A stretch of 64,000 nt of DNA from Isoetes taiwanensis. Taxonomy: Eukaryota > Streptophyta > Lycopodiopsida > Isoetales > Isoetaceae. The notes under the pieces are model-generated. The model was not told the DNA's origin. It did no database searches and saw nothing but the letters and a program-made list of their open reading frames with translations. This document shows, one piece after another, positions 1-64,000 of the stretch; position 1 is the stretch's first letter, and the number at the start of each line of letters is the position of its first letter. A program made the position numbers and the translations under genes. The stretch spans positions 8,059,161 to 8,123,160 of the forward strand of contig JAJEKV010000040.1 in NCBI GenBank assembly GCA_021234155.1. The letters run 5' to 3'.

Positions 1-1236
1 GGACTTGACATCTTTATTCAAGAATAATATGTATATCAATCTTTAGATATTTTCATAGAATTCCAAATACAAAACTTGATTGTCTCCTAACTTTGCTTGT
101 TATTCTTGCAAAGTTCGCTTCATACTCTTTGACAAGTTTCATTTACGCCATAATGTTCATGTCCCCAATAACTCAACGGAACAACGTTAGACTAGCAAAC
201 CCATCCAAATTGATGTGGCTCCTTTGGTTGTCGCTATGCCCTTAACTACATCTTGTTCTTCGATCCATCATGACTACAAATTATAAGCTAAGGATTCTTG
301 TCCTTAAGACACGTATTCAAACCACTAATAAAAAATATTTCAATAACCTAGGAAAAAAAAACATAATACACCCCTTTTGTTTCAAGGTTTGTTGAACCCC
401 AAGCAAAGTTCATTGCAAAGGATTCAAAGATAATACTTCTCATCTAGTATTAATATACCCTTATAATTCAATAATGTCTTACTCTTCCTATGATCCGAAA
501 CAATATATCTCTTACTCAAACTAAAGAAACAAAACAACAAGGTGTTAAATTTTTTTTTCCAATGTGGGATACCCATGCCTGGTATTCCTTCTTAGGCAGT
601 AATCAAAAAGCTTTCCTTTTTCCCTCCAAACCCTAATGAAGATACCGAAAAAGGTAATTTTAGGTTTTGGAAATCTTCCAGAAAGAAAAGGACGCTGCAA
701 AGATTTCGGACAGGCTTCAGGAGCAATTTTGGTTGTAGAAGAGGTAAGTCTGATCAAAATAGCTTCGGATTTGTAAGTAAAGTCGGCTTGGATTCAACAT
801 AGAACTATGAATTGATCATGAAACAAAGGTTTAGCAAACAACAGTTCGTGGCCGCCTCCTCTGCTCCAGATAAAATAATTTCATAGCAGTAGGGTTCAGT
901 ATCATGGCAAGTGCATTTTCATTCAATTCGAGATCTGTAATCTATCTTGCAATGTAATTCATCTTCCTACAGCAATTGATCCAGGTATTGTTGTGCGGGT
1001 CCGAATTTTGAGATTCTAACTCCTCAAGGCAGAGTCTTGTGATTTTTATTCGGCCAGTTACTGACAGATTTAACTTTCTATTAGCAGCATTGTAAATAAT
1101 AATACGTAATCTCACAAAGTAAGGTCAGCTTTGAATTTAAATCTTCCTAGATCAAACATTCAAGTCTCCGCTTCAACAACAATATTAGACTACTCAGGCT
1201 CCCAGAGAAATCGGGAAACCTTGCTCTGATACCACT
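1..1236 (-). mobile_element. Internal region of a non-autonomous copia-type LTR element, copy A (cut by window edge)
   Basis: This stretch matches 13,732-14,966 almost base for base, and the left part of the element lies outside the window. It ends at a primer-binding site next to the LTR at 1237, so the element reads on the minus strand. The only open frame of note is a 70-codon minus-strand ORF at 545-757, preserved in the second copy at 14,278-14,490; it resembles no gag or pol domain I know. No reverse transcriptase, integrase or protease motif is visible, so the element would need enzymes supplied in trans. The element type is inferred from the PBS, LTR and polypurine tract, not from coding sequence. 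Confidence 0.7.
1214..1234 (-). promoter_or_regulatory. Primer-binding site, initiator-Met tRNA type (copy A)
   Basis: Read on the minus strand, the site is TGGTATCAGAGCAAGG. Its first 12 bases are complementary to the 3' end of plant initiator tRNA-Met. It lies 2 bases from the LTR end (TATCA), as in copia-type elements, and it fixes the element's orientation. Confidence 0.8.
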
Positions 1237-1994
1237 TGATACGGATCTGGAGTTAGCCAGTAATAAAAATTAAACATGTAATAAAAACAGTAAATCATTA
1301 AAGATTCTAAAACCATACCTTTAGTCCAAAGCTCTCCAACCAATCGGCTTGTTCTAGAGCTAGTGATCTCCAGAGAAAGACTGAATTTTATGGGAAAGAA
1401 GGAAGGCTTGGGAAAAACCAATTAGCACTAAAGACTCTTCTTTAGCAATACTCAAATTCAAGGAAAGGCTATGGATTTGGGTTTCCACAACATCACTGAT
1501 CATCCAAGAGTTTTACAAATCTGGCTTGATTATCCTGCAAAGTAAACGGAATGGCTTTGATTAAAAAATCAGAATTGATCCAGAAGGGGCCGGTAATGGG
1601 TCAATGATGTCGGATCTGGGATTAGGATCACTGTAGCAATGTCCACAGCTACTGTAGCGGTCGCCAAGTGTCATTGTGCTATCCGTCAGATGCCCGCCTG
1701 TGATACCGTTGTTGCCAGATTGTTGATGCCCCACCTTCGTTGCTGTTGTTTCCCGCCCTCTTATAGGTGTAGAGAAAGCTGTCGCCCTTTTCTTAGAAAT
1801 AACCCTTGTTTCTATAAATGAGCATAAAGGCTTTCTAGCTTCTATTTTAAGCCTTGGCCCTTGTTCTTTTGGACGTGATCTTATTCTTAGACCCCTTATA
1901 CAATTAATTTACTTGGCTCAAGACTTAAGCGTTTTGGTCTTTTTTTCTCTTTCCTCACGCTCCACAACCTCGCCCCCGAAGGCATCACATATAT
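1237..1994 (-). repeat. 5' LTR of the copia-type element, copy A
   Basis: The LTR begins TGATACGG on the plus strand and runs to the degraded end near 1994, where copy B has ...CCATATCA. The TGATA/TATCA ends are the expected short inverted termini. It is about 758 bp, against 767 bp for the copy at 14,967-15,733. The right boundary is blurred because the last bases differ between copies. Confidence 0.7.
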
Positions 1995-3944
1995 CTTGTG
2001 GTTTGGGGACCTTCTCGCGAAATAAGTTTATTCCCCGAAGGAAGGATTAATACACTTTTCAGTTTGACAATATCAACTTTGAAAAGATGGAGGTTTGATG
2101 GTTTCCTTTATATAATGGCACCAGGATGACCAAATCTTGAGAAAGGGAAGAAATTGATAGTCTTGAGAAATGATGTAAATCTTTAAGAAAGATGATCGAG
2201 GCTTATCGGACTTGAGAAATAATGGAATTGATATGGTGCCTGGGGAGTGGTCTTGCATAATGTTTATTTATATGATCAAGTAAAGAGCCATCCAAGATGT
2301 TCAAGCCTTGATATTATCAAAGAGAGAGCTAAAAACAAACATTGGCCTTTATTTAAAAGCAAAAAAGGAAAAACAAAAAAGGAGTTGTTACCATAAATTG
2401 AAGGACAACTTTTGAGACATGATATCTCCCGCGATCACTTCCAGGAGATCGCCACCCCACTTGTTGGAAAGCGCTTGAAGTCCGGGGTTTCAGTGAGGGG
2501 CCGAATGTCCCAGATCCCTTACGATTTGAAAGTTATACGTGAAAGGTATAGGGTTCTAAGGCGACCGCGACAACTAGATCTCTTCTTTCTATGTTTGATG
2601 AAGAGCTTAGCCTTGCTCTTCTAGTATTTTGTTTCTCATTGATCATATCATTAGAAGAAGTTCCCAGAATAATTCAATGGTTGGTGGCTAGAAAGTTGTT
2701 TGTTCTTATACGCCTTAAGCGGATTAGCTTAACTTGGTGACGCTCTTCTAGTTGGTCCTATTGGGTGGTATATCTATAAATTGGGTGGTGTTTTAGTTTT
2801 CTAATAAGTTGATGAATTCCAAGGTGAAGAATGATCATTCAGAATAATTGGTATCAAAGCCCAGTTCAAAGACATTGAACCCGTGGACATTGAGACTTGC
2901 AATGAGTCGTGAAACTTACAGATTTTGAATTGACCGAGAAGCTGGATGTCTTCGCTTCAAGGCTTCTTAAGCACAGACGAGACTTTGAAGGAGTCCAAAT
3001 GCATGCCCAAATGACCGCCGCATAAGATCCCCGCCTAAATATATCCAAAGATGCCATGTTTTCCATGAAGCATCAAAGAAATATTTCGTTAGATTAGAAG
3101 CGCGGACCAAATATATCAGCTGGTCTTGTCAATTTGTCACGAATTTTCTATAGCAATTGTTCCTGTTTAAAGAAATTTATTTATGGATTCTTTACAGGTT
3201 TGGAATTGCGCAAAGATTGTGGCATCATTGAATCGACGGCCATTCTGAGAAGGAAATCTGGCCAGTAGTCGCCAAATGCCCTGGTCGGGTATACTTCATT
3301 GTCCTGTAATTGAATACGCAGCCCGATCCGAAAATTATTATAGAGATGGAATTAATAGCGAAGCATGTGACCTTTTATCAAAGAAGATAGTGAAATTCTG
3401 GCCGTAATTGTGGGCCGTGGCTGTTTTTTTAACAGCGAATTGACTAGAAATTGGTTGAAGTATGGAGATCCTGGTGGAATTTTGTTGTTTGAATGCTTAT
3501 AGTGAAGGTCGGCCGTTAAAAGAAAAGGTTGCTCACCTCAATCTAAATGGACAAACAAAATATTAGAACCTAGTTTTTGAAATTCTTCCTTGGGATTACG
3601 AAGCATGGATGTATACCAACATATGGTATAGTATAATGATGAAGTGTGCATCTAATCGGGCAAGGCTATGTCTACAAATAAAACATCTTTCAATTAAAAA
3701 ACATAATGACATTCCTCGAAAGGCAAAGGAATCCATGTGATGTTATAAATCACCATTCATTCCCTTTGCAAAATGAGAGGAATGAGTAAGTTAGAATTAC
3801 AACGAAGGAGGTTTATAACTTTTAGAGGATATTACTAGTTTTGTCAAATTTCCAGTAAGAACTTTGACTAAATGCTTATAGTCAGGGTTCTTAGAAGGAA
3901 ACACTGAAATGCAAATCACAAAAATAGCACTTTTAAGGATGCTA
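1995..3944. other. Duplicated host DNA, copy A, no gene recognised
   Basis: This stretch is co-linear with 15,734-17,699 of copy B but has many small indels. I find no frame open in both copies and no domain. Differences often sit at CAG or CTG in one copy, for example the stretch around 2990-3060 against 16,745-16,805. It may hold intronic or untranslated sequence of the neighbouring ADP-ribosyltransferase-like gene. Confidence 0.5.
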
Positions 3945-4577
3945 TTAAGATTATATGTATATTGTTTAATCTTTTATTGATTTTAATAATTTTTATAAGT
4001 TTTAATTATTATAAAAAAGTTTATTCAAAGAGTTGATGGTTCAAAGCATAAATTTATTTCCTGTGACAAGTTTCATCGGAATCTATTTAGAACTTCCTAG
4101 ATACATATTTTACAGAATATATAATTGCAAATTTCAAAGTAGATTCAACAAATTTAATATTTGGCAATCTAGATAATTTGTATATAAAACTCTGATGAAG
4201 CCTACTGCCGACTATTACTTAGGATTTTATAATTTGCAACCTTAGCACTTTTAAAATAAATATTCTAAGAAAAGTTTTATGTTGAAGTTTATTAAAATGA
4301 TAAATTCTAGATTAATGACCATTTTTTAAGATAGTTTATTATTGTTTGAAATACGATTTAATTGGGTTTTAAACAATTTTATTAGATTTACTTAATAATC
4401 TATTCAACCTAGGTACTTTAAACATTATTTTGAGAAGACAAACATTTAATCCATATAACTCTTTTGTATAGAATTTTGAATTTGGGGCTCATCGAGTGAA
4501 AGTTATGTTGTAATAAGTTTTATGCTTTAATAAAGTATAGATACTTTAATTTAAAGATCATTTCATGGGCTGGATAG
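3945..4577. repeat. AT-rich direct repeat A1
   Basis: This is a roughly 0.6-kb AT-rich repeat. It also occurs at 6331-7036, 17,700-18,300 and 20,205-20,915, and in diverged form at 26,785-27,378. A shared landmark is the block TTTTAATAATTTTTATAAG near its left end. Two copies flank each ADP-ribosyltransferase-like gene in direct orientation. I see no terminal inverted repeat and no coding frame. Confidence 0.75.
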
Positions 4578-51490: not shown

Positions 51491-52612
51491 GTATGTTGGC
51501 GATGACTTAGGAAGCTAGCTGACAAAAAATCAGAATTTAAGTCCGTACTATGCATTAATTCTGAATTCTGAATGTCTTGCTCTCTTGCAAAAGCGAGCCT
51601 TGACTTCTAAGCGCCTGGCGGGAGGAGTACGGGTCAAACTCCATTCCGTCGGTTCCCCTTGCTTCAGCGTTCTCAAGCTGCATGTGATGCCCCGTCCCAA
51701 GTGCAAAAGACCAAAAGTCGGCACCCAAAACGCAAACCACCGCTGGAACACGGCAACTCATAGGGTTTACGTTTGGCGGCTCTATCCTTGTCGGTTCGAC
51801 TAGGACCTTGCGCCCGTGTCTTGGCGTAGGGGGTGTTGGCCTTGAACCACGGACCCTAAAACCACCCGGGGCGGCTTGCCCCAAAAGTCCTCTCCGAGAG
51901 GCCACAGCGACGGACGGGCAACTTCCCTCTCCGGGAACCGTGATGCTGTCTCGCCAATGGACTCATAACGTTGACATTGCCCTAGGGACCAAGTTTTGTG
52001 GCGAAGCCCACCCCTTCGAAGAAGCGCCAAACTAACTCATGTGCAACACACTTTCGTAGTCAATTGGCCTAGGAGGTGGGCTGCTGAATCTTTTACATGT
52101 AGAGGCGTAAGTGTTTCTTTCTTTTGCAAAAACTGACCATGTAACTTGGTCCCTAGGGTAATTTTGGCATTCGGACGATGTGGCAAAGTCGAATCGCCAT
52201 TTCGAACCTCCGCGGTGTCCGACGACAAAACACTTTGGTTTCTACTGTCGCCCGGGGGCGCTTCAGCGGTTTGATATGTTCTCGGACCGGATGTTAGATT
52301 TTTTGGACCTTCTCGAGCCAGGTTCCTTGAACAAAGGATTCAGCGATTGGGATCACGGGAACCAAGATCCGGGAGTGTGGTCTTTAGCGTCACGCCCCAG
52401 TGGGGCTACCGAGAAAAGCTGCCTCGGGGAAGCTTTTGGGGCTCGCCTCACGGGGTTCCGGACTCTCCCCTCTAATGAGGAGGCCTTGCAAGGTCCTGGC
52501 CTTGTTTGATTTGGGCAAGTGTGCCATTTCGGTGCCTTAACAACAAGCTGCGGGGCCGTTCTAATGCAAACTATTTGATCTAAACCTTATCAAAATTTTT
52601 TGAAATTGGCAC
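51491..52612. repeat. Dispersed repeat unit, first copy (uninterrupted)
   Basis: A 1,122-bp unit. Its first 340 bp are repeated at 52,613-52,954 and its next 380 bp (about 51,828-52,215) at 63,336-63,725. The second copy is therefore a tandem partner split by the hAT element. At 51,820-51,827 the unit carries the single CTTGGCGT that is duplicated around the hAT insertion. I see no credible protein in it; its own class is unknown. Confidence 0.85.
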
Positions 52613-52954
52613 GTATGTTGGCGATGACTTAGGAAGCTAGGTGACAAAAAATCAGAATTTAAGTCCGTTACTATGCATTAATTACATTTCACGAATGTCT
52701 TGCTTCTGCAAAAGCGGGCCTTGACTTCTAAAAGCGCCACAACGGGGAGAGTCTGAGTCCAAACTCCATTCCGTCGGTTCCCCTTGCCCGGCGTTCTCAA
52801 CTGCATGTGATGCGGCCATGTCTTAAGTGCAAAAGACCAAAGGCTTCGGCACCCAAAAGCCAAACCACGCTGGGAACACGGCAACTCATAGGGTTTTACG
52901 TTTTGTGGAGGCTCTATCCTTGTCGGTCGACTAGGACCTTAGTAGTCTTGGCGT
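52613..52954. repeat. Dispersed repeat unit, second copy, left part
   Basis: Matches 51,491-51,827 and ends in CTTGGCGT (52,947-52,954), the left 8-bp target duplication of the hAT element. Confidence 0.85.
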
Positions 52955-53069
52955 CGGGGATAGGTTCAATGCGTATCGTTTTATATGCAATGCATTATTT
53001 TTTTTTAGTTTGTCTGGCACAAATTTGGCGTTTAATGGGTCAAAATCTGACTAAAAATTTCCGGCGTCG

Positions 53070-53300
53070 GAAAAATTTGGCGTAAGCGAAAACAAAAACT
53101 GTTTAAACTCTGAAGTTTCTTTTAACGTAAAAAGCGAAAGCGGTCGTTTTAAACTACAGCTTGACAAAAAGTTTCAGCGTAAAGCGAAAATCAACTGTTT
53201 AAACTTCTGAAAAAATCTTCAGCGTAAAGCGAAAGAGTTGGTTTAAACTACTGTGAAATTTTTAAACCGCCGTGGTTAAGCATTGTTTAAACTACGGCGA
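53070..53300. promoter_or_regulatory. Left subterminal repeats of the hAT element
   Basis: About four variants of GCGTAA(A)GCGAAA (near 53,079, 53,126, 53,178 and 53,221) alternate with about five GTTTAAAC-type words (53,101, 53,137-53,146, 53,193, 53,241 and 53,284). They resemble the right-end motif and are likely transposase-binding sites. Confidence 0.7.
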
Positions 53301-53672
53301 TAAACTTCTTTGAAACTTTGCAAAGCATATTTGGGCGTTTTGCCAAGGGAAAAAAACTTTTATGCCAGCTGTTTGGCCTATTTTGTGCATGGTGAAATAT
53401 TATATATAAGAAAAATGTGTTTAGCTCTAGAATTAAGCCTCGAGCGTTGACTACCAGTCGAGTCCACATACTCCTTGGGGAAGCGGTCACCTTTGAGGTG
53501 TGGGTTTTGCGTCCGGGGCGGCGGGAATTGTGAAGTGAGATTCCTCCTTCCACGAGTTTTTCCGACAGGTTCCTACCACGTTCCTTAGAGACCTATAGGT
53601 TCCTCGTCCTTCACTCCTTACGTTGAGCGGGGCGTCGATGTAACATATCGTGAGTGAGCTTGCTCGCTTCAT

Positions 53673-53681
53673 TATATATAG
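53673..53681 (+). promoter_or_regulatory. TATA-box candidate for the hAT transposase
   Basis: TATATATAG, followed about 85 bp later by the first usable ATG (53,767). The position is right for a plant core promoter. Confidence 0.5.
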
Positions 53682-53766
53682 ACGTCGGCCTTTAGTTCCG
53701 GACGATTAAGGAGTCTTTACCCACTAGCATACCGGGCAGAGACGGTAATTTTAGATAGCGGCGGGG

Positions 53767-56337
53767 ATGGCGGCTAGTCATGCATCTACATCAGGCCACT
53801 GGCCAATATGCATCTACATCGGCAGCCCGGCGGTCATGCATCATCGTCTAGGGGTGCGCGGCCATCAGCAGTCGGCATGCGGAGAGCCCGCGGGGTTGGA
53901 ACAAAGACGCGGAAGAATTATATGTCGAAATCTTGGGGGTCGAAAGAGAGGTCCCGAAAGGGGATTTGTGAAGGAATTTGGTCGAGAATGAGTGGCAATG
54001 CGTATTTTGTGGGTACATCGTCAATAAATGGATCCGCGACAAGAATACAAGCTCATCTTTTACGGGATCCTAAAATTGGGGTGCAAACATATGCGGCATC
54101 TGCTGACATACGACAAGATGCACTTGAAGTGTTAGGGTCGAAAAAAAGAATAGCGGCCGAAGAACACGACCAAAGGGATAGCCAAGGACCTTCACCATGC
54201 CAAGAAGAAGAGATCAATTACACCACCCCTCTGCGGCGCCAATGTACCAACCGAGGGTGGACTAGGGTCGATAGGAGGGGTTAAGTCTGGCCCGAAAAAA
54301 GAATGGCGAGACAATTGAGATAGTGGAAAGACGGACTAAACAAAGAGGGTTGACCGATTGCTTAACATCGAAAGCAACCGAAGAAGGCGCGCAATTGAAG
54401 GTTGTAGAGGCATTTTATATGTCGGGTTGTCTCCACATATTTTGGAGCACAAAGCAATGAAAAGAAGTCTTCGAGGAAGTTGCCAAAGCGGGGGCGGCTT
54501 TTTAGATTGCCTTCATACAAACATGCCAATAACAAAATGGTGGATGAAATACTGCGGAAAAAATGGTCGAGAGGGTGGAAATGAAGTTAAGTCGTGTTAC
54601 TGAAGCCAGGCCAGCCTCACTAGTGACTGATGGTTGGAGCAATGTAAACAAGGACCATCTTATAAATTTCATGATCGTGTATCCGGGGCGGCGTCTTGAA
54701 AACCGTAGAAACCAAAAGCCGACCAAGTCACGGGGAGATTGGATTTTCAAAAAACAAAGGCTGTGATAGAGGGTTTTGGGCCGAAGAGAATATTTCAGGT
54801 CGTAATGGACAACGCGTCTAATTGTGAATTAGCGGGATTGCACGCGACCAGCTGCCAATGCCATTGCCTGAACTTATTGTTGAAGAACTGGTTTTCACAG
54901 CACACTTGGTTCAAAGATCCCATTCAAAAGGCCCGTCGTCTCGTGAAATTCATCACAAAGAAGCCGGCAATTTACGCCATATACAAGTCATTGCGTCAGA
55001 AGGCCCTAGCACTCATGAATCGAGCCGGACTTCGGTTTGGTTCCAATTACATTTGTCTTGAAAGAGTGCTTAGGTGTCGCGACTCGATTATCTCGACCTT
55101 CAACCATACAGAGTTCTTTGAATGGGAGAGGAGGCAGAAGGGAAAAAATGCTTCAAAACACCGGCAGCAAGCTGCCACCCTTCGAGAAGTGCTTGGGCGG
55201 GAGACATTTTGGAGAGGCGTAAAGAATGTTGTCAAGTGCATGCAACCTGTTTGTCATGCCATCAAAACCCTTGATTCTTCGAAGGCAAGCACTGGAAAGG
55301 TCTGGAGGTGCTGGCACTCCATTCAATCCTTTCTACAGCGTGATGGCCCCAATGCACCCTTTGACAATGCTAAGCGCGCAGCACTGCTTAGAGACTTTAA
55401 TGAACGATGGAAGAAGTCCTACAATGATCTTCATGGCGCCGCACATGCTTTGGACCCACACAACCACAATATGGACCAGCATACAGATAAAGAAGTGATG
55501 GGTTCATTGAAGAAGGTGGCAAAAATGTTTTACCCCAACAGCTCGGACTACAAAATTTTCATTGCCGAGTTAACTGAATACTAGAACTTCAGTCGAAGGT
55601 GGGCAGATGAAGAGCTTCACGATGCACTGGAGAGTCACAAGAAGGAACCAAATATGGAATCTTATGCATGGTGGCAAGCCCGTGGACAGGTTACCGATAC
55701 GTTACAGGCCCTTGCAATGACTATCCTCTCCTTGGTATCCTCCAATAGTGCAAGTGAGAGGAACTGGAGTGCTTATAAGTACATACATAGTGTGACACGA
55801 AATCGCCTCTTGCATAAGAAGGCTGACAAACTTGTATATAACTTCTCAAATTGGCGGCTCTTGAATCGCAACAGTGGTGCAGCCGTAGTTGATAAGCTAC
55901 AGTTTCCTTTTATGGATGCAGATTCTGAAGTGGAAGAGGACAACTTCGAAGACAGTGAGGACGAGTTGCTTGCTGTAAATGCTGCTAACCATGTTGATGA
56001 GGACATTCAACGTACCCATTTTGTCGATGCCGAGGATGATTTAGACAAGAACATGTTCTCGGATGACTCAAACGACAGCGAAGATACAGAAGAGGAGTCT
56101 GATACAGAAAGGCCAGGTCTAAATAATACAGGAGATCTGCTTGAGGACTTAATAGTACGTGAGCCAGCGGACTCTCCAATGCCAATGACCCAGACAAATA
56201 GGCAACGTGTCAGAAGAAACACGACTCGAGGACGTTGCAGCAGTAAGGGAAAGGGCCAAAGGAGGTTGAACCTAGGCCATCATGCAGAAGAGGAAGGAAG
56301 CCCAGATGATGAAACTGATGAAGACGATGATGTCTAG
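53767..56337 (+). pseudogene. hAT transposase (BED finger, DUF659, RNase H-like, hAT dimerisation), frameshifted
   Basis: It starts at ATG 53,767 near a TATA box. A BED-type finger is split by a frame change: WQCVFCG (53,993) in one frame, GSATRIQAHL (54,026) in the next. The DUF659 region shows SLVTDGWSNVNKDHLINFMI (54,617) and FQVVMDNASNCELAG, then a CHCLNLLLK motif (54,794-54,890). From 54,739 one frame stays open to 56,337 apart from one TAG at 55,582. The C-terminal hAT dimerisation domain has SNSASERNWSAYKYIHS, then NRLLHKKADKLVYNF (55,742-55,850). A long acidic tail ends the protein (55,915-56,335). About four interruptions are present, mostly before 54,740. The enzyme would cut and rejoin the element ends in the nucleus; as read it is inactive, but decay is light and some breaks may be sequence errors. 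Confidence 0.9.
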
Positions 56338-56339
56338 AA

Positions 56340-58428
56340 AGATGATGTGATGAGTACCCTCAGTCTATCTATTGTAACCGTTTATGAGGATGTTCAAACT
56401 ATTGTAACCATTTTGGCACTATGAATAACAAGTAAAGTTTTTTGTTACAAGTATTTGTCTTCTATATATCTCGTCACCCTGTTTTATGTTTCTTTCATGT
56501 ACGATGTTTCTTTCATGTATCATCATGGTTCACGTAACTTCGGTCCATGTTTCATTCATGCGTAACATCAGTCAACCTAAGTGCCTAGAGAAACCTCGCA
56601 CCCGCCAAAGGGATTGACTTCCGTTGACGCTTGCCTCTTCGCATGCCACAGAATCTTGCTGATGAGAAGTAATTTACGCATGCCAAGGGGTCAAACGGCA
56701 ACGGATCAGTCGATACGACTTTGACGGACACGAGATTTCACAAGGTACATGATCTACATCCTCCCAACCACTCGTCAATCACTAATCTCAAATGAACCCA
56801 CAGAATTGCAAGCAACCACTAGGCTGATATCATCCGCTGCCACAATAAAAATAGAGTACTCAAAAACCTTGTTACCTCAACCTCTAGAACGAACGACTTT
56901 TGCTCCGACCCCCATTGTGAGCCTCTTTGTGTAATATAACCTAGGAAAGTGACTAAGCTACATTGACACAGAGAGACTACACAAGAGAGTCAGAGCAAAG
57001 CTCGCTCTTTCTAGAGGAGGTAACAAGAATTTCGAGAAGTCTATATTGTTTGCAGCGAACAATATCAAGCTTTGGTGAGTTGACGACCATTCAAGAGGGT
57101 CACGCTCAAGGTGTTTACTCTCTTTTTCGATGTTCTGTTTATATATATCAAAAGTGTCCCCTAAAATGGCGGCGATCTCATACCGAGGGGCACTTTAGAT
57201 ACAATAAGCGGGACAAGCAAAAGAGACTAAGCCCGACCGGGATGGAAGAGACTAAGCCAGGGATGAAAGAGACATGAGTACAAACATCGAGACTTCCCAA
57301 ACCTTGCTTTAGCCCCTCTTTGAACAATGGAACTTAGCATGTAAACTAAGCTACATTGCCCAAAGAGGAGGGGAAAAAAGTGGGAAGTCTCGATGCTTGA
57401 ACTCATCAATCCTGAACATCTAATTAACCCACATATTGTTATCTTGTTTTATGTCCGGACTTACCCCTCTAAGACACAGGTCCAAGCATCGAGGGCGTCC
57501 CAGTCTTTGCTTTCACCCGCCTCTTATGGACAATGGAACTTAGCATGTAAACTAAGCTACATTGCCCAAAGAGGCGGGGGAAAGAAAAACGGGGAAGTCT
57601 CAAGCTTGAACTCATCAATCACTAACATCTAATGAACCCACGTAATCGCAAAGCAACTACTAGGCCTTATATCCTCCGTGGCCACAATAAAAATAGAGTA
57701 CTCAAAACCTTGTAACCTCCTCTAGAATCGAGCGATTTCTGCTCCGACCCCCATTTTATACGCGTCTTAGGTGTAATATAACCTAGCAAAGTATCTAAGA
57801 TACATTGACACAGAGACACGCAAAAGAGAGTCAGAGCAAAGCTCGCTCCTTCTAAAGGAGGTAACAAGAATTTCGAGAAGTCTATATTGTTTGCCATGGA
57901 GAATATAAAGCCTGGTGACCTGACAACCATTCAAGAGGGTCGCGATCTAATTCAGGCTTACTCCCTTTTCGAGTTTCCTGCTTGATGTATCTAAATCGCC
58001 ACCTAAAATTTCGAGAAGTCTATATTGTTTGCCATGGAGAATATAAAGCCTGGTGACCTGACAACCATTCAAGAGGGTCGCGATCTAATTCAGGCTTACT
58101 CCCTTTTCGAGTTTCCTGCTTGATGTATCTAAATCGCCACCTAAAATGAGTGAGCGACCTCATCCTAGGGGGCAATTTAGATACATCAAACAGGACAAAC
58201 AAAAGCGACTAAGCCTGACATGAGGTCCAGATGTCAAATAGGTTGCGTGTGCAGATGTTTTGACTCACTCACATACTTACTTTACTTAACTATAATACAA
58301 ACAACTCAATGCGGCAACCCAACCTCCAAAATTTTATTAAGACAAAGAAATCCTCGTCAACGAACGTTGGTTCATTCATGTGCATCTGAGATCTTAGGGA
58401 AAAATATCAAAAAATAAATGTAGATAGC
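56340..58428. repeat. Spacer of tandem, foldback-bearing units between transposase and cargo
   Basis: Two related blocks about 840 bp apart (56,740-57,250 and 57,585-58,220) share the phrases CACAATAAAAATAGAGTACT and AAGAATTTCGAGAAGTCTAT. Between and within them are foldbacks: arms of about 45 bp at 57,274-57,320 and 57,363-57,406, a similar pair at 57,480-57,610, and 26-bp arms at 58,115-58,140 and 58,171-58,197. No protein is supported. Confidence 0.75.
57871..58146. repeat. 138-bp perfect tandem duplication
   Basis: The unit starting TTTCGAGAAGTCTATATTGT occurs at 57,871-58,008 and 58,009-58,146 without visible differences. It is therefore either very recent or an assembly duplication. 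Confidence 0.95.
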
Positions 58429-58801
58429 TCATGGGTTTAAGTACTCGTCTGCATCCAAGTTCACACCTTCGTCACCTGCTGGCCCAGGAGCGGGCGGCAG
58501 GTACTGATTAATGTCTGGTACCTCTTCACCTTCACGCGGTTCTTCTACCCCCCTCCAAAGGTCCATTTCACATTGGGATTGGAACGCATGAGCCATTCCA
58601 TCCCTCCTGCGCGAGCAACCCGAGGTGGCAAGGGAGGCATCGCGATTGCAGATTGAGCATTGCATCTTTGGCGCTCGGTATAATATATCCATAATCTGGC
58701 TGGAATGAACCTACGCCCATCATCAATCCAACAAGCACCTCAAATGCGGGCGATGTCCACACCCTAAGGCATACCAACCAACTTGGGTTAGATTGTCGCA
58801 C
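58429..58801 (-). CDS. Cargo ORF fragment, C-terminal, unknown
   Basis: Two overlapping minus frames joined by one shift read SPAFEVLVGLMMGVGS, then FQSQCEMDLWRGVEEPREGE and an acidic Pro-rich tail ending DADEYLNP. The smooth protein-like tail to a stop codon argues for a real C-terminus. It could belong to the coiled-coil ORF to its right (same strand) after an intron. No family recognised. Confidence 0.35.
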
Positions 58802-59443
58802 ACACTTGACAATATCTAAAGTCCCCTTCTTTTACATCGTCCCCACTTGACTTTCATATAGGTATTTATTCGAGGGAGGTATGCAATACCCTACTCCTTG
58901 GAGACTCTAAGGGGATCAGAATCTAAGACTCTTGATATTGTGCATGTGCTCATTGTCTACTCTCAACGCCCGCATTTTCCCTACCCAAAGGCTGCAAGTT
59001 GATTCTTAGTGTCTAATAATTCTGCAGACCATCTTGTCATGAGCATTTGCCACGATCTTTTAAGCAAATTTTCCTCGGCCAGTGAGGTTTCGACTTCTTT
59101 CATTCTCTAACCGAGCCTTGGCTCTACCTCATCTGTCCCTTTGCACTCTGGCGCAAACCCGCCACATCTAAAAGTTTTATGGCATCTTGAAGCGGATAGG
59201 TTATAGTCACTGGCTCATCACCAAGGCTTTGCCAGAATCATCATGACTTCACTCTCTTCTGCTACCACTTTGCTTCCTTGTTTCCACTTTCTCTTGGCAT
59301 AATTTACGGGCTCCCTCTCACAATCTCATAGTACACTTGCTTGGCAAGCGTCTTCTTTGGTTAGAGTGGTTTTATCATTGTTCCTTTCACTTGCACCCAC
59401 TCTCCAAAGCTTTAGCTCGGGACTTGAGGGGATCTTGCGGTCG

Positions 59444-59870
59444 TTATGCCTTATACTTACACCGCTCTCCTGCTTGGCGGTCGGCGTCAAAGTGTTTGGC
59501 GTCTAAATTGGCCTCGATATCCTCATAATCTGCTCCATGTGGGCAACAACCTGGGCCCATGCCACATGCAACTCCATGCACCTCTGTAATTGTGACACCT
59601 TCTTTCTTGGCCACTTCTGCCATTGCCCTCAACCTTAACAACTCTTTTTGCACGGCTTCATTCATTCTAGCATGTTCCTCTCTTTTACAGATCATTGTGC
59701 CTAACCTCGACAATGTAGGTAGAAGGGAATTCAAATCCATCCGGTCCAGGAGTTCTCAAAGTGTCCGGCATAGAGAAGTCTCCTCCATGCGCGGTTTCAT
59801 CAGCCCCTTCTCTCATGTGCTGATGAGAAGAGCTCGGTTGCCGATGAGACAAACTGGGTCGTTGAGACAT
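59444..59870 (-). CDS. Cargo ORF 2: Ser/His-rich start and coiled coil, one frameshift
   Basis: ATG at 59,870 opens MSQRPSLSHRQPSSSHQHMR and continues to about 59,735. There a one-base shift leads to LNSLLPTLSRLGTMICKREE, then NEAVQKELLRLRAMAEVAKK (about 59,600-59,660), a clear amphipathic helix with coiled-coil spacing. A Cys/Gly segment and an acidic end (YEDIEANLDAKHFD) follow, to a stop at 59,444. I know no family with this layout. It is co-oriented with the kinase-like gene 260 bp upstream, so the two could be co-expressed or even one split gene. As transposon cargo it might be a partner or DNA-binding co-factor; that is inference. Confidence 0.45.
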
Positions 59871-60127
59871 TCTTAAGTGTTTGGCACTAGGTAGTTGTGA
59901 GTTCGTTTTCTTGCGGATAAGCTTTACATTAACTGCGCGAAATAAAAAACAACTCAATATGACTTATAAATTATAAAAAAAAAAAAAATAAGTGCAACAA
60001 AAATAAATACATAAGAATGCCAAAGATGTTTTATTGAATGTATTTAAAGCAATTGTTCATTGATTATTTTTTTTGGTTGCATACAAGAGAGCTCATAAAT
60101 GGCACGCTAAGCGTGACTTGGTCCGGC

Positions 60128-61705
60128 TTAATTCGCGCCGTCGCCCCTAACCCAACTTGAGGAATCCAATCTGATTACGTTTGGGGTCTTGTGCAATGTG
60201 TTGGAGAGCAATTCCGGTGTGCTCGCATGGTGTTCGATGGTCGGGTTCCGGATCAAACTTACGTGCCTTATCTCATTATTGGGGATTCGACCGCGATTAG
60301 CTTCAAATAATCGCACATGTTTCGAAACCTCTGGCTTTGTTCATTGGTACCCATACTCTCCAAGAAAGAGTGCTTGCGTGCAAAATCAGCAAGGTAATAG
60401 ATAAAGTAGGCTGCCCCTAAGAGATCGAAGTCTACCCTTGCAGGCACCGTCTTAGTTCCATCTCTTTTTGGACCCCAATACAAATCATCATGCATGTATG
60501 GATAGGCAAGCCTTTCATCAATGGCCTTTTTGCAGCAGACATCCATGCCTTTGTATGCCCACCGCTTCACTTCCAGCGGCTGCGCCCTATTAGGCGTTCT
60601 TCTCCCCAATCACATATACCAATATAAAATGACACGGGGGTCCGTGCATCCTCTCTCTTTCCCAAATTCAAAATGAAGCAAGACATTGCCCGGGTGTAAG
60701 TCCATGTGTAGATGGTGCTCTTTATGAAGCTTAAGCAAGCCGCTTAAAAACGACATAGTTAGATCACCCACTCTTTGAGCAACATATAACTCCTGCTTTC
60801 TTCGTTGCTCAAGCTTATGGACATCAACCTCGACAGTAGGCTTACACCCTAATCTCTTAAATGCATGCCTGGCAAACTCATTATCTCCATGATGCACAAA
60901 AAGAGATGCACAAGAACCCCCATTCCAGTAGGGAAATATCAACCCTGTTCTTTCCAACCCAGTTGTACGACCAATGCAGCGTATGATAGAGCCATGTCTA
61001 ACCTGCATTTGTGATTCCCTCATGTTTTTCATCATGGCCTTTACTATCACATCAGGTCTGGCCGTACCTAACCGCACATCCTCATTCTGAAATTTAACAC
61101 AATAGGGTTCATCTTTAAGAAAACTAGAACCCAAGATATTGCATTTGAACACCGTTCCATATGTTCCTGAACCAATTCTGGTCCTGTTCATTATTTGAGA
61201 GGAATCCACCATATAGTCTTGGCATCTGCCCTTTTTCTTGCTTCCCACTCTTTATCAGTCTCACCAGGACGCTTGGCTCTAATAGTCTGTGCCAACACTT
61301 TCTTAACTAGGTGAGGGGGTTGATGGGTTTCTTTCTAAGCTTCGATTAAGTCCAAGCCGTGTTCCATTCCACAGCCTTATCTTTTAAAGACTCTCTCAAG
61401 CGGGGACTAGTTAGATTTGCCACTGCATGAATCATATTTCCAGTTGCACGGGATACATTGCCATCTATCCAAGCATACCTTTCAGAAGGAGTCTTTTCAG
61501 GTTCTACGTCTATCATTCGAGGCCCAAAAGCTCTCTCAGCGTCTCTCATGAGACTTGAGTGGAAGTCTAGCCATCCTTCATCCATTGTAGTAATCAACTC
61601 TAACTTTCGGATGGGGTGGCGGCTATATATTAAGCTCACGAGCCAATTCATTAAAACAGTCTTAAGGAGGACCATGGTGTTGGGGTCTTGATCTTTTCTC
61701 TGCAT
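60128..61705 (-). CDS. Protein-kinase-like cargo gene of the hAT element, frameshifted
   Basis: ATG at 61,705 opens a 119-codon helical N-terminal region with no known domain. The frame then shifts through EWEARKRADAKTIWW (about 61,215) into the kinase domain. There one sees the Gly-rich loop IGSGTYGTVFKC (61,176-61,141), YCVKF with the ATP-anchoring Lys (61,095), the catalytic loop HMDLHPGN (60,708-60,685) and, after one missing base, DWG in place of DFG (60,603). The C-lobe follows (VKRWAYKGMDVCC, FDLLGAAYFIYYLADF), and after another shift a tail ends near 60,128. ATP-binding and catalytic residues survive, so the ancestor was probably an active Ser/Thr or Tyr kinase rather than a pseudokinase. 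At least three frameshifts exist as read. No introns are needed. It lies between the transposase and the right TIR, opposite in strand, hence cargo rather than host DNA. Confidence 0.75.
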
Positions 61706-61733
61706 CTTAGTAGAGGACTTCGACCTCTGGGTT

Positions 61734-61840
61734 CATGTGAGGCTCTGCTTCCACCCTAGGTCCTTCTTTAGGGCTCATGTGAGGCTCAAAGCTTCTACCC
61801 TAGGTCCTTCTTTAGGGCTCATGTGAGGCTCTGGCATTCT
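61734..61840. repeat. 42-44-bp tandem repeat upstream of the kinase gene
   Basis: CATGTGAGGCTC begins at 61,734, 61,776 and 61,820, with CCCTAGGTCCTTCTTTAGGG between. It lies 30-130 bp upstream of the kinase ATG and may fall in its promoter or leader. Confidence 0.85.
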
Positions 61841-62943
61841 AGTCTAAGCCCGTCTAACTCTTGTGGATTCATAGCGACTTTAGAAGAAACGTGTATAGAT
61901 AGCGATATGCCAACTGTAGCAAAGCAGCAACAATACCTACAAGTCTGGGGGAAAAAAAAAACCCACTTTAGTGAGTGTCAATAATGTCGAAATAGTTCAT
62001 TAAGATTCTAGTAAACTACTAAGTTTCAAGCTTGACAGTTGTAGGCACCCTACTGAGTTTAACAAGTTTTCTCATTCTCTTCAACAAGTTTAACTTATGA
62101 TCTGACCCAGCTACTGACTCCATTAGGAAACTCCCTGGCGGCACTCAACTGAACATATTGCATAAGACCACCTAGCAAAGTCACGAATATTTAATGAAAT
62201 ATACGCCACTCCCTATATTAGTGTTGGACTTTCGTCAACCACACCGTCAGAAAATAGGGTATATCTCATTAAATATTCTTCTGACCTTCCATAAGAGTAC
62301 AACACCCACCTTTTAGCACCGCGTGACCGAAGCCAACAAGCGGCAGGTGAGGGCTATACACCTAAATGGGAGGTTGACCCTAGCAATCCTCGACATCAGC
62401 AATGACACCCACCCTCGGCATGGCACAATTCAATGTGGCACGCCAGGCGAGGGTCACTGCCTCAGCCAAGGATCACTCCGAACTAAAACCTAGTCTCTCT
62501 TAAAGTACTCCCTACCCTCACTGCTACTGTTGTCGATGAAAGGGTAGGCAACCAAATTAAAGGGTAGGCAATTCTTTTATTTTTATTTTTATTTTTATTT
62601 CATTATTTTTTTTCCTTTTTTTATTATTTCTGTTCTATTGTTTTTTTTTTCTTTTTTTTTTCATTATTTTTTTCACAAAAATCAGTCTGGATTCGACCAT
62701 AGAACGAGACGCTCACCATCGTCACGCCCCTCAATGGAGGGGGGCAACAGGCGAGGGCCTCACTATGGAGGAACCCTAGACCTACAATAAAAAAACAACA
62801 AAAAACTAACTAGGTTTGTCTAAAAACTAAGAAAAAATGAAAAAAAAGGGAAAAGGGGCACAGGTTGTGAAGGAGGGCGCAGGTGGTTTACCTTTTTCTG
62901 CGCAAAAACAAAAAGAATGCGCCTCCGTATATATATAGAAAAG
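61841..62943. other. Cargo-side non-coding DNA of the hAT element
   Basis: No gene is seen. A foldback with 20-bp arms at 62,186-62,205 and 62,259-62,279 (arm GAATATTTAATGAAATATAC, one mismatch) and a T-rich run at 62,575-62,670 are the only structures. Confidence 0.5.
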
Positions 62944-63209
62944 TTCGCGTAAGCGAAAACTACTATTTCGCTTACGCGAAACCCGCTTCGCGTAAGCGAA
63001 ACTTATAAAACAGCTTACGCGAACGAAAAAAAATTTCGCGTAAGCGAAACCTTCTATTTCGCTTACGCGAAAAAAGTTTCGCGTAAGCGAAACTTAAGAC
63101 TTCGCTTACGCGAAGTCGGGGAGGCGGTTCGCGTAAGCGAAAAATAAACTTTCGCTTACGCGAAAAAATGTTCGCGTAAGCGAAACAGAAGGTTTCGCTT
63201 ACGCGAAAA
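62944..63209. promoter_or_regulatory. Right subterminal array: 12 alternating copies of TTCGCGTAAGCGAA
   Basis: Six copies read TTCGCGTAAGCGAA and six (one shortened) the reverse complement TTCGCTTACGCGAA, in strict alternation, about 22 bp apart. Each copy is itself a near-palindrome (TTCGC / GCGAA around a 4-base centre). The array sits 120 bp inside the right TIR, where transposases of hAT elements bind. Weaker versions lie at the left end. Confidence 0.9.
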
Positions 63210-63327
63210 TTTTTTTTTTCCGGCCGGCGAGTATTAAATACGAAAATACGTATTTTCCCTAAAAATACGTATTTTTGGACTTTATACGTCTGAAAAAATA
63301 ATTTCATACGTACAGAACCTATCCCTG

Positions 63328-63730
63328 CTTGACGTAGAGGGGGAATATTGACGCCAGAGCAAGGACCCTAAAAACCACCCGGAAGCAGCTTGCCCCAAAA
63401 GTCCTCTCCCGAAGGCCTTGGCGACGGACGGGCAACTTCCCCTCTCCGGAACCGTGATCTGTCTCTGCCAATGGACTCATAACGTCGACATTGCCCTAGG
63501 GACCAAGTTTTGTAGCCAGAAGCCCACCCCTTCTCGAAGAAGCGCCAAACTATCTCATGTGCAACACACTCGTAGTCAATTGGCCTAGGAGGTGGCTGCT
63601 GAATACTGCAATGTAGGGCGTAAGTGTTTCTTTCTTTTGCAAAACTGACCGTGTAACTTGGTCCCTAGGGTAATTTTGGCATTCCGGACGATGTGGCGAA
63701 GTCGAATCGCCATTTCGGAGCCTCCGCAAT
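63328..63730. repeat. Dispersed repeat unit, second copy, right part
   Basis: It begins with the right target duplication CTTGACGT and continues co-linear with 51,828-52,215 to about 63,725. After that the two copies diverge. Confidence 0.85.
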
Positions 63731-64000
63731 GTATAGCAACAAAACCATAGCCGGTATAGTGCGACACAGCGTAATTCTGTTAACAGACTTAATGCACATG
63801 ACATTAGGACAACGTTGTTAACAGTTATAATGGAGATGACATTTGGGCATTTGGGTATAATCGAAACAATGGGAGCGAATCGTGAACCAAAATGAGAGAG
63901 CAAATAATTGAAAAAAGAAAAAAAAAAAACGGACCCCTTTGATCTTGAGGATATTTGCCGACTTCAAGGATCGTATGAAATGAACTGGAAATCTCTAAAC
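63731..64000. other. Window end, no gene recognised
   Basis: A short stretch without recognisable features apart from an A-rich run at 63,910-63,930. Confidence 0.4.

Follow-up and report, generated by a model that had tools for sequence, protein, structure and literature searches.

The hAT superfamily includes Ac, Tam3 and hobo, together with plant elements whose transposases carry the DUF659 and Dimer_Tnp_hAT domains. To our knowledge, hAT elements code for a transposase alone, one gene between two short repeats, and are regarded as minimal. The element described here is like them in its 8-bp target-site duplication, its short terminal inverted repeats (TIRs) starting CAGGG, its Dimer_Tnp_hAT and DUF659 domains and its subterminal repeats; it differs from them in adding two conserved genes for predicted protein-modifying enzymes on the opposite strand.

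By analogy, we regard the Ulp1-carrying KIU elements as the nearest precedent in kind; they appear in a review from 2026 on how plant transposons capture genes (PMC13317346), according to which their VANDAL/VANC relatives counteract the silencing of their own family. The likeness is that, in both cases, a DNA transposon of plants has long conserved, beside its other genes, one that encodes an enzyme of protein modification. There are differences: KIU and VANDAL are Mutator-like, non-TIR elements, with a SUMO-protease domain, whereas the present element is a hAT with TIRs, a kinase and a RING-type protein. A Pfam scan of six pieces (two kinase, one RING and three transposase) found no Ulp1 or MuDR-type transposase domain, and the words “kinase” and “hAT” are absent from the text of the review. 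Among the matches listed in a literature search covering titles and abstract openings, mostly outside the subscription literature, there was no report of a hAT element with a kinase or RING gene. An accessory kinase–RING pair would, on our reading, be new for a hAT element.

The window, that is, the whole stretch of 64,000 nucleotides of Isoetes taiwanensis DNA that was analysed, contains one such element of 10.37 kb at 52955-63327. Its left 13-bp TIR (CGGGGATAGGTTC, 52955-52967, forward strand) has one mismatch to CAGGGATAGGTTC, the repeat found at both ends of two other copies, c1075 and c1031, and the right TIR (GAACCTATCCCTG, 63315-63327, reverse strand) is by sequence match the complement of CAGGGATAGGTTC. 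The flanking 8-bp duplications, CTTGGCGT at 52947-52954 and CTTGACGT at 63328-63335, agree at 7 of 8 positions. An empty target site is preserved in a neighbouring tandem copy without the element (51491-52231): the flanks at 52613-52959 and 63360-63745 are homologous to the adjoining 51491-51832 and 51848-52231, respectively. The target-site duplications are perfect (8/8) in both c1075 (ACTTTTGT) and c1031 (CTTCCTCA), while c1010, a copy with a more distant kinase (family 2, see below), has both TIRs, with one left mismatch as in the window, and flanks without a matching duplication. The right ends of two further copies, c490 and c907b, were not found within the DNA fetched.

The hAT transposase gene (53808-56337, forward strand) is broken in the window; its C-terminal dimerisation domain (55654-56337) matches PF05699 at E 8.2e-8 and is followed by an acidic tail rich in Ser, Asp and Glu, and DUF659 reaches merely E 0.019, below cut-off, in this broken copy. 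The transposase of c1031 matches both PF04937 (DUF659; E 7.6e-27) and PF05699 (E 2.1e-9). Three of the four hAT features tested were found, namely the 8-bp duplication, the short TIRs and the transposase with its C-terminal dimerisation domain. For a BED-type finger, a CVFCGY...H motif can be picked out by eye in c1075 and c1010, and the c1075 piece has no such Pfam match at E 0.1.

The two other genes lie on the reverse strand and converge on the transposase. Between the coding parts is a non-coding middle (56770-58223) with direct and inverted repeats, in which we also observed an exact 138-bp tandem duplication (57869-58006 and 58007-58144). Near the right end is a subterminal array of inverted palindromic TTCGCGTAAGCGAAA repeats (62939-63216), with similar arrays near both ends of c1075; related repeats were seen near the left end of the window element at 53071-53308. 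These arrays and their left-end relatives are likely candidates for subterminal transposase-binding sites.

The protein-kinase gene occupies 60110-61967 on the reverse strand and corresponds to an open frame of 621 aa in c1075; the longest readable piece in the window is an open reading frame of 200 aa at 60610-61212, which matches Pfam PF00069 at E 2.6e-8. This lies above the gathering score, so the kinase signal is not a chance match. An earlier note made from the letters of the window had placed the kinase wholly inside the TIRs, on the strand opposite the transposase and without introns, and in all three respects it was right: the gene lies within 52955-63327, the transposase reads in the other direction, and intact copies elsewhere can be read without any intron. 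The motifs it had named are all on the reverse strand, as claimed (IGSGTYGTV at 61176-61150, the lysine of YCVK at about 61095, HMDLHPGN at 60708-60685 and DWG at 60611-60603), except that the DWG falls in another frame. Nor is the kinase one open gene in the window: aligned to the 621 codons of the c1075 frame, it shows 50 mismatches along with 29 indels, of which 27 break the frame.

Open kinase frames of 621, 550, 574 and 596 aa are found in c1075, c1031, c1010 and a fourth copy, c908, respectively. The note had further argued from retained catalytic residues, and these are indeed kept across the family: the Lys, the HxD Asp and the Asn in 40/40 copies, the Asp of DWG in 36/40, its Gly in 38/40 and the probable aC Glu in 38/40, most of the 40 copies in these counts having been picked by protein similarity and long frames. 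The Gly-rich loop, Lys, HxD Asp, Asn and DxG Asp of eukaryotic protein kinases (PF00069/PF07714) are thus mostly or always present, and all nine members of set A1 match both profiles at E <=0.01. The element kinase differs from these kinases in having HMD for HRD and DWG for DFG, and in lacking a close structural relative; it is atypical in these motifs, with Pfam scores of 28-48 bits. A phmmer search at E 1e-3 found no close solved structure, and a profile search against structures gave weak matches to RAF, DYRK3 and similar kinases, the best at E 0.002. The N-terminal half, about 220 residues, is conserved, and its one Pfam match is below threshold (TFIIF_beta, E 0.0059). By profile and catalytic residues the protein is classed in the protein-kinase superfamily, with predicted phosphotransfer activity. 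A viral or prokaryotic origin was considered and set aside, one scan each of IMG/VR and of GTDB genomes, which weak relatives could escape, having returned no relative.

A second accessory gene, absent from the earlier note, sits between those for the transposase and the kinase and encodes a RING-type protein (58432-59765, reverse strand). It corresponds to a 448-aa frame in c1075, relative to which the window copy has 70 mismatches and 43 indels, 42 of them frame-breaking. The c1075 protein scores 23.7 bits with PF00097 (cut-off 21) and 25.4 bits with PF13639 (cut-off 27.3), and the other RING models in Pfam stay below their own cut-offs. It shares with RING-finger proteins (PF13639, PF00097) the common pattern Cys-x2-Cys ... 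Cys-x-His-x2-His-x2-Cys ... Cys, with seven zinc ligands, each of them present in at least 19 of the 20 copies. It departs from the eight classical ligands at the last position, which is not Cys: an Asp stands four residues past the last Cys in 18/20 copies. On the strength of the PF00097 match in c1075, we class the protein as a putative E3 ligase.

All three genes are therefore frame-broken in the window, and the 27 frame-breaking indels in the kinase and 42 in the RING gene, counted against c1075, imply that this copy is either dead or badly assembled. Some of the indels may be assembly errors, because the Isoetes taiwanensis assembly (1658.30 Mb in 204 scaffolds and 909 unplaced contigs) was built from nanopore reads with Illumina reads and optical maps, according to its description (PMC8566536). 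Simple homopolymer error does not account for most of them, since only 5/23 single-base indels in the window kinase fall within runs of >=3.

We searched the whole genome (1,658,258,908 bases in 1110 contigs) for each of the three genes. The 200-aa kinase piece has at least 150 matches, the window's own included (the best 150 of 1199 candidates were scored), which disposes both of the one-off capture that the earlier note had entertained and of a kinase confined to the window copy. Among the matches listed, identity to the window piece separates two kinase families, family 1 at about 76-98% and family 2 at about 59-73%. The transposase C-terminus gave at least 149 matches from 144 scored of 1716 candidates; five that were second pieces of loci already listed were dropped, leaving 144 for the linkage count. 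For the RING end, the best 150 of 803 candidates were scored, again a lower bound. The kinase frames of c1075 and c1031 lie inside TIR-bounded elements of about 10.3 and 9.1 kb, respectively, and no copy that was read across its three genes retains every one of them unbroken.

The arrangement seen in the window recurs throughout the genome. Among the matches listed, 55/150 kinases have a convergent transposase 2-30 kb downstream, compared with 2 on the wrong strand and 1 in the upstream control, and 66/150 have a RING gene 0.5-25 kb downstream on the same strand, compared with 0 on the wrong strand and 2 in the control. Either partner is found for 89/150 kinases, both for 32/150 and neither for 61/150 among these matches. 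Counted from the transposase, again among the matches listed, 90/144 have a kinase or RING gene in the expected orientation within 30 kb (55/144 a kinase), as do 15 of the best 20. At nine transposase loci the downstream DNA was read directly, and remains of the kinase and/or the RING gene were present at 9/9, in the expected place and on the expected strand, in line with the suggestion of the earlier note that the kinase might be conserved cargo. Four of these loci had been found via the kinase (the window, c1075, c1031 and c1010), two came from linked pairs (c490 and c907b), and the other three (L065, L066 and L067) belong to the five of the best 20 transposases that lacked a listed kinase or RING gene within 30 kb. 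L065 has RING remains in the 6 kb read, L066 the N-terminal part of a kinase and then the right TIR, and L067 remains of both genes. The element thus regularly includes the kinase and RING genes, at a fixed place and in a fixed orientation.

Eight kinases were drawn at random from the 61 without a listed partner, and five of them have RING remains directly downstream; the other three (L069, L071 and L075) have none in the 2.8 kb read. A further copy, c908, is a solo kinase with an intact frame and its own upstream DNA, and with no hAT or RING DNA nearby. Together with the three copies lacking RING remains, it establishes that solo kinases exist. That c908 is a processed retrocopy was ruled out by eye, as the upstream DNA is kept and there is no A-tail at the edge.

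Selection was estimated for the kinase on a 187-codon core from 35 of 38 loci, the window being counted among the 38; the window, L015 and L027 were left out as having no single frame that covers the core. Dividing mean pairwise dN by mean dS gives 0.159 for the 17 copies of family 1 and 0.150 for the 18 of family 2, the loci (37 for the kinase, most with long frames) having been picked by protein similarity and frame, which biases dN downward. The earlier note had proposed, as the mark of a true component, that most copies keep the kinase with dN/dS well below 1, and this is what the copies examined display. As an internal guard against the bias from the choice of loci, we contrasted variants present in at least two copies, which probably spread through transposition or duplication, with singletons. 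For the kinase, N/S per site is 0.110 and 0.111 by family for shared variants vs 0.410 and 0.249 for singletons; for the RING gene the values are 0.197 and 0.184 vs 0.351 and 0.241, and for the transposase 0.050 and 0.023 vs 0.364 and 0.348. One transposase requires care: mean dN within the family-2 group is 0.039 without c1010 and 0.088 with it, and we suspect that the long transposase branch of c1010 is due to frame breaks.

As judged from these substitution patterns, all three genes are under purifying selection while the element spreads, and the contrast fits a history in which the three proteins are constrained during spread and relaxed after insertion. We are therefore highly confident that the kinase and RING genes are a selected standing component of this hAT element.

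The accessory genes have not shared the history of the transposase. When one kinase family is compared with the other, 255/306 kinase pairs and 71/72 RING pairs are at synonymous saturation, whereas the transposases of the two groups have a mean dS of 0.46 without c1010 and 0.50 with it. Of the cross-family pairs of elements with measurements for kinase and transposase alike, 20/20 have a saturated kinase dS, and their transposase dS lies between 0.37 and 0.61. The RING gene follows its kinase: in the 56 kinase–RING pairs, 29/31 family-1 kinases have a RING gene of at least 82% identity and 22/25 family-2 kinases have one of 62-74%. Transposase identity to the query is alike in the two groups, with means of 89.1 vs 88.8% (24 and 18 pairs, respectively). 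In the transposase tree, the node uniting the 11 family-1 carriers has a support of 0.29, and with midpoint rooting on the long c1010 branch the nesting of family-1 carriers among family-2 carriers varies with the root; on its own, this tree does not establish an exchange.

These comparisons strongly indicate that the kinase gene moves together with the RING gene, and that exchange or homogenisation has affected one half of the element and not the other. The saturated dS of the kinase and RING genes against a transposase dS of about 0.5 points to exchange between backbones, and the simplest reading is either that recombination brought an old kinase–RING pair onto a different hAT backbone or that gene conversion homogenised the transposase half, which would yield an equal mismatch in dS. 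A lower synonymous rate in the transposase may by itself produce the difference, and it would need to be lower several-fold. That the two genes form a two-enzyme signalling module of the element's own, an interchangeable accessory or counter-silencing cassette that moves whole from one transposon backbone to another and is adapted to targets in the host, not to the transposase, is an idea to which we would give somewhat less than an even chance.

The explanation we favour, with some confidence, is that the window contains a decayed member of a presumably autonomous hAT family, present in many copies of about 9-10.4 kb and built of three genes, with an intronless kinase frame of 550-621 aa and a RING-type protein of about 448 aa, in which the kinase–RING pair would serve as an accessory module for counter-silencing or licensing that acts on host proteins. 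Basic patches resembling nuclear signals, seen by eye in the kinase (RKRSRPQQ) and in the RING protein (TKRVKL), lead us to expect both proteins in the nucleus. There, the kinase would phosphorylate host proteins that silence the element or limit its transposition, and the RING protein would ubiquitinate those proteins or scaffold their modification. As the two genes are maintained together, they may act in one pathway, with phosphorylation feeding ubiquitination; candidate targets are silencing or replication-licensing factors. Granted that the module is a selected standing component, we put the odds that it is mainly host-directed at about even. We rank host proteins above the transposase as targets on the ground that the pair does not share the transposase's history.

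The leading alternative, which we hold to be possible though rather unlikely, is self-regulation, in which the kinase and RING protein target the transposase of the element itself: phosphorylation of its acidic tail would lead to turnover or licensing of the protein, setting the dose and timing of transposition. A kinase with a RING protein is the pattern of a phosphorylation-triggered degradation pair, which the two genes resemble; all three genes are kept together, and the tail of the transposase is rich in acidic Ser/Thr sites (by eye, in the L051 frame). The differing histories of the pair and the transposase argue mildly against tight co-adaptation, a point weakened in turn by the transposase proteins of the two groups still sharing about 90% identity.

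Much less probable, in our estimate, is that a host kinase, with or without the RING gene, was captured and is merely copied, the low dN/dS being left over from host selection before capture. Gene capture by plant transposons is common, as stated in the review cited above (PMC13317346), and many copies are broken, with 13/37 kinase loci having one frame across query residues 110-500 and 24/37 having none. Against this, the low N/S (0.11) is found for variants segregating among copies within each family, that is, for changes that arose after capture, and the two cassette lineages still keep their catalytic residues at synonymous saturation. Least credible of all is that the constraint is an artefact of ranking by protein similarity and choosing long open frames: the 37 kinase loci are mostly long-framed and three unframed loci were dropped from the 38, but singletons, which were subject to that choice of loci as well, give 0.25-0.41 vs 0.11 for shared variants in both kinase families, and the RING and transposase pieces, chosen more for linkage and completeness and read across frame breaks, show a like contrast.

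From the signs of selection on all three genes, it would seem that the element supplies signalling enzymes of its own to aid its spread. If the kinase and RING-type genes are indeed selected, a DNA transposon can carry its own signalling module, comparable to viral accessory genes. The long-standing question of how protein modification lets abundant DNA transposons escape host control, or turn it to their use, then becomes testable in a non-flowering land plant. More practically, counts of the lycophyte kinome and of lycophyte RING proteins may take in transposon genes.

Several further observations were made on individual copies. In L065, a short element, roughly 2.2 kb long and ending in the TIRs of the family (about 1596-3805 of the reverse complement), is nested in a larger copy, with flanks matching at 7/8 positions by eye; it is a probable non-autonomous derivative of the three-gene hAT family. 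The kinase cores of L016 and L017, on contigs C1044 and C1030, have no synonymous difference, which suggests a recent transposition or duplication. Adjoining c1031, L011 (about 260-4103) has open reading frames resembling those of a LINE-type retrotransposon (reverse transcriptase and endonuclease, by eye).

A third kinase subclade, with an open frame of 604-619 aa, was found at two loci (L076+L046+L071+L077 at G000:C941:1557900-1570600, and L078+L045+L079 at C1081:5865600-5875562), at a dS of about 0.7-1.0 from the other family-2 kinases. Neither locus has a RING or transposase match, and merely scraps of other hAT-element DNA lie upstream. At the C941 locus, a piece resembling a PPR gene (by eye) lies upstream of the kinase, and about 240 bp downstream, on the same strand, is an intact open reading frame of 1417 aa that by eye resembles a Helitron Rep/helicase; at C1081, the closest relative of this frame among the matches listed is about 190 kb away. 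The kinase may thus also be carried by a Helitron.
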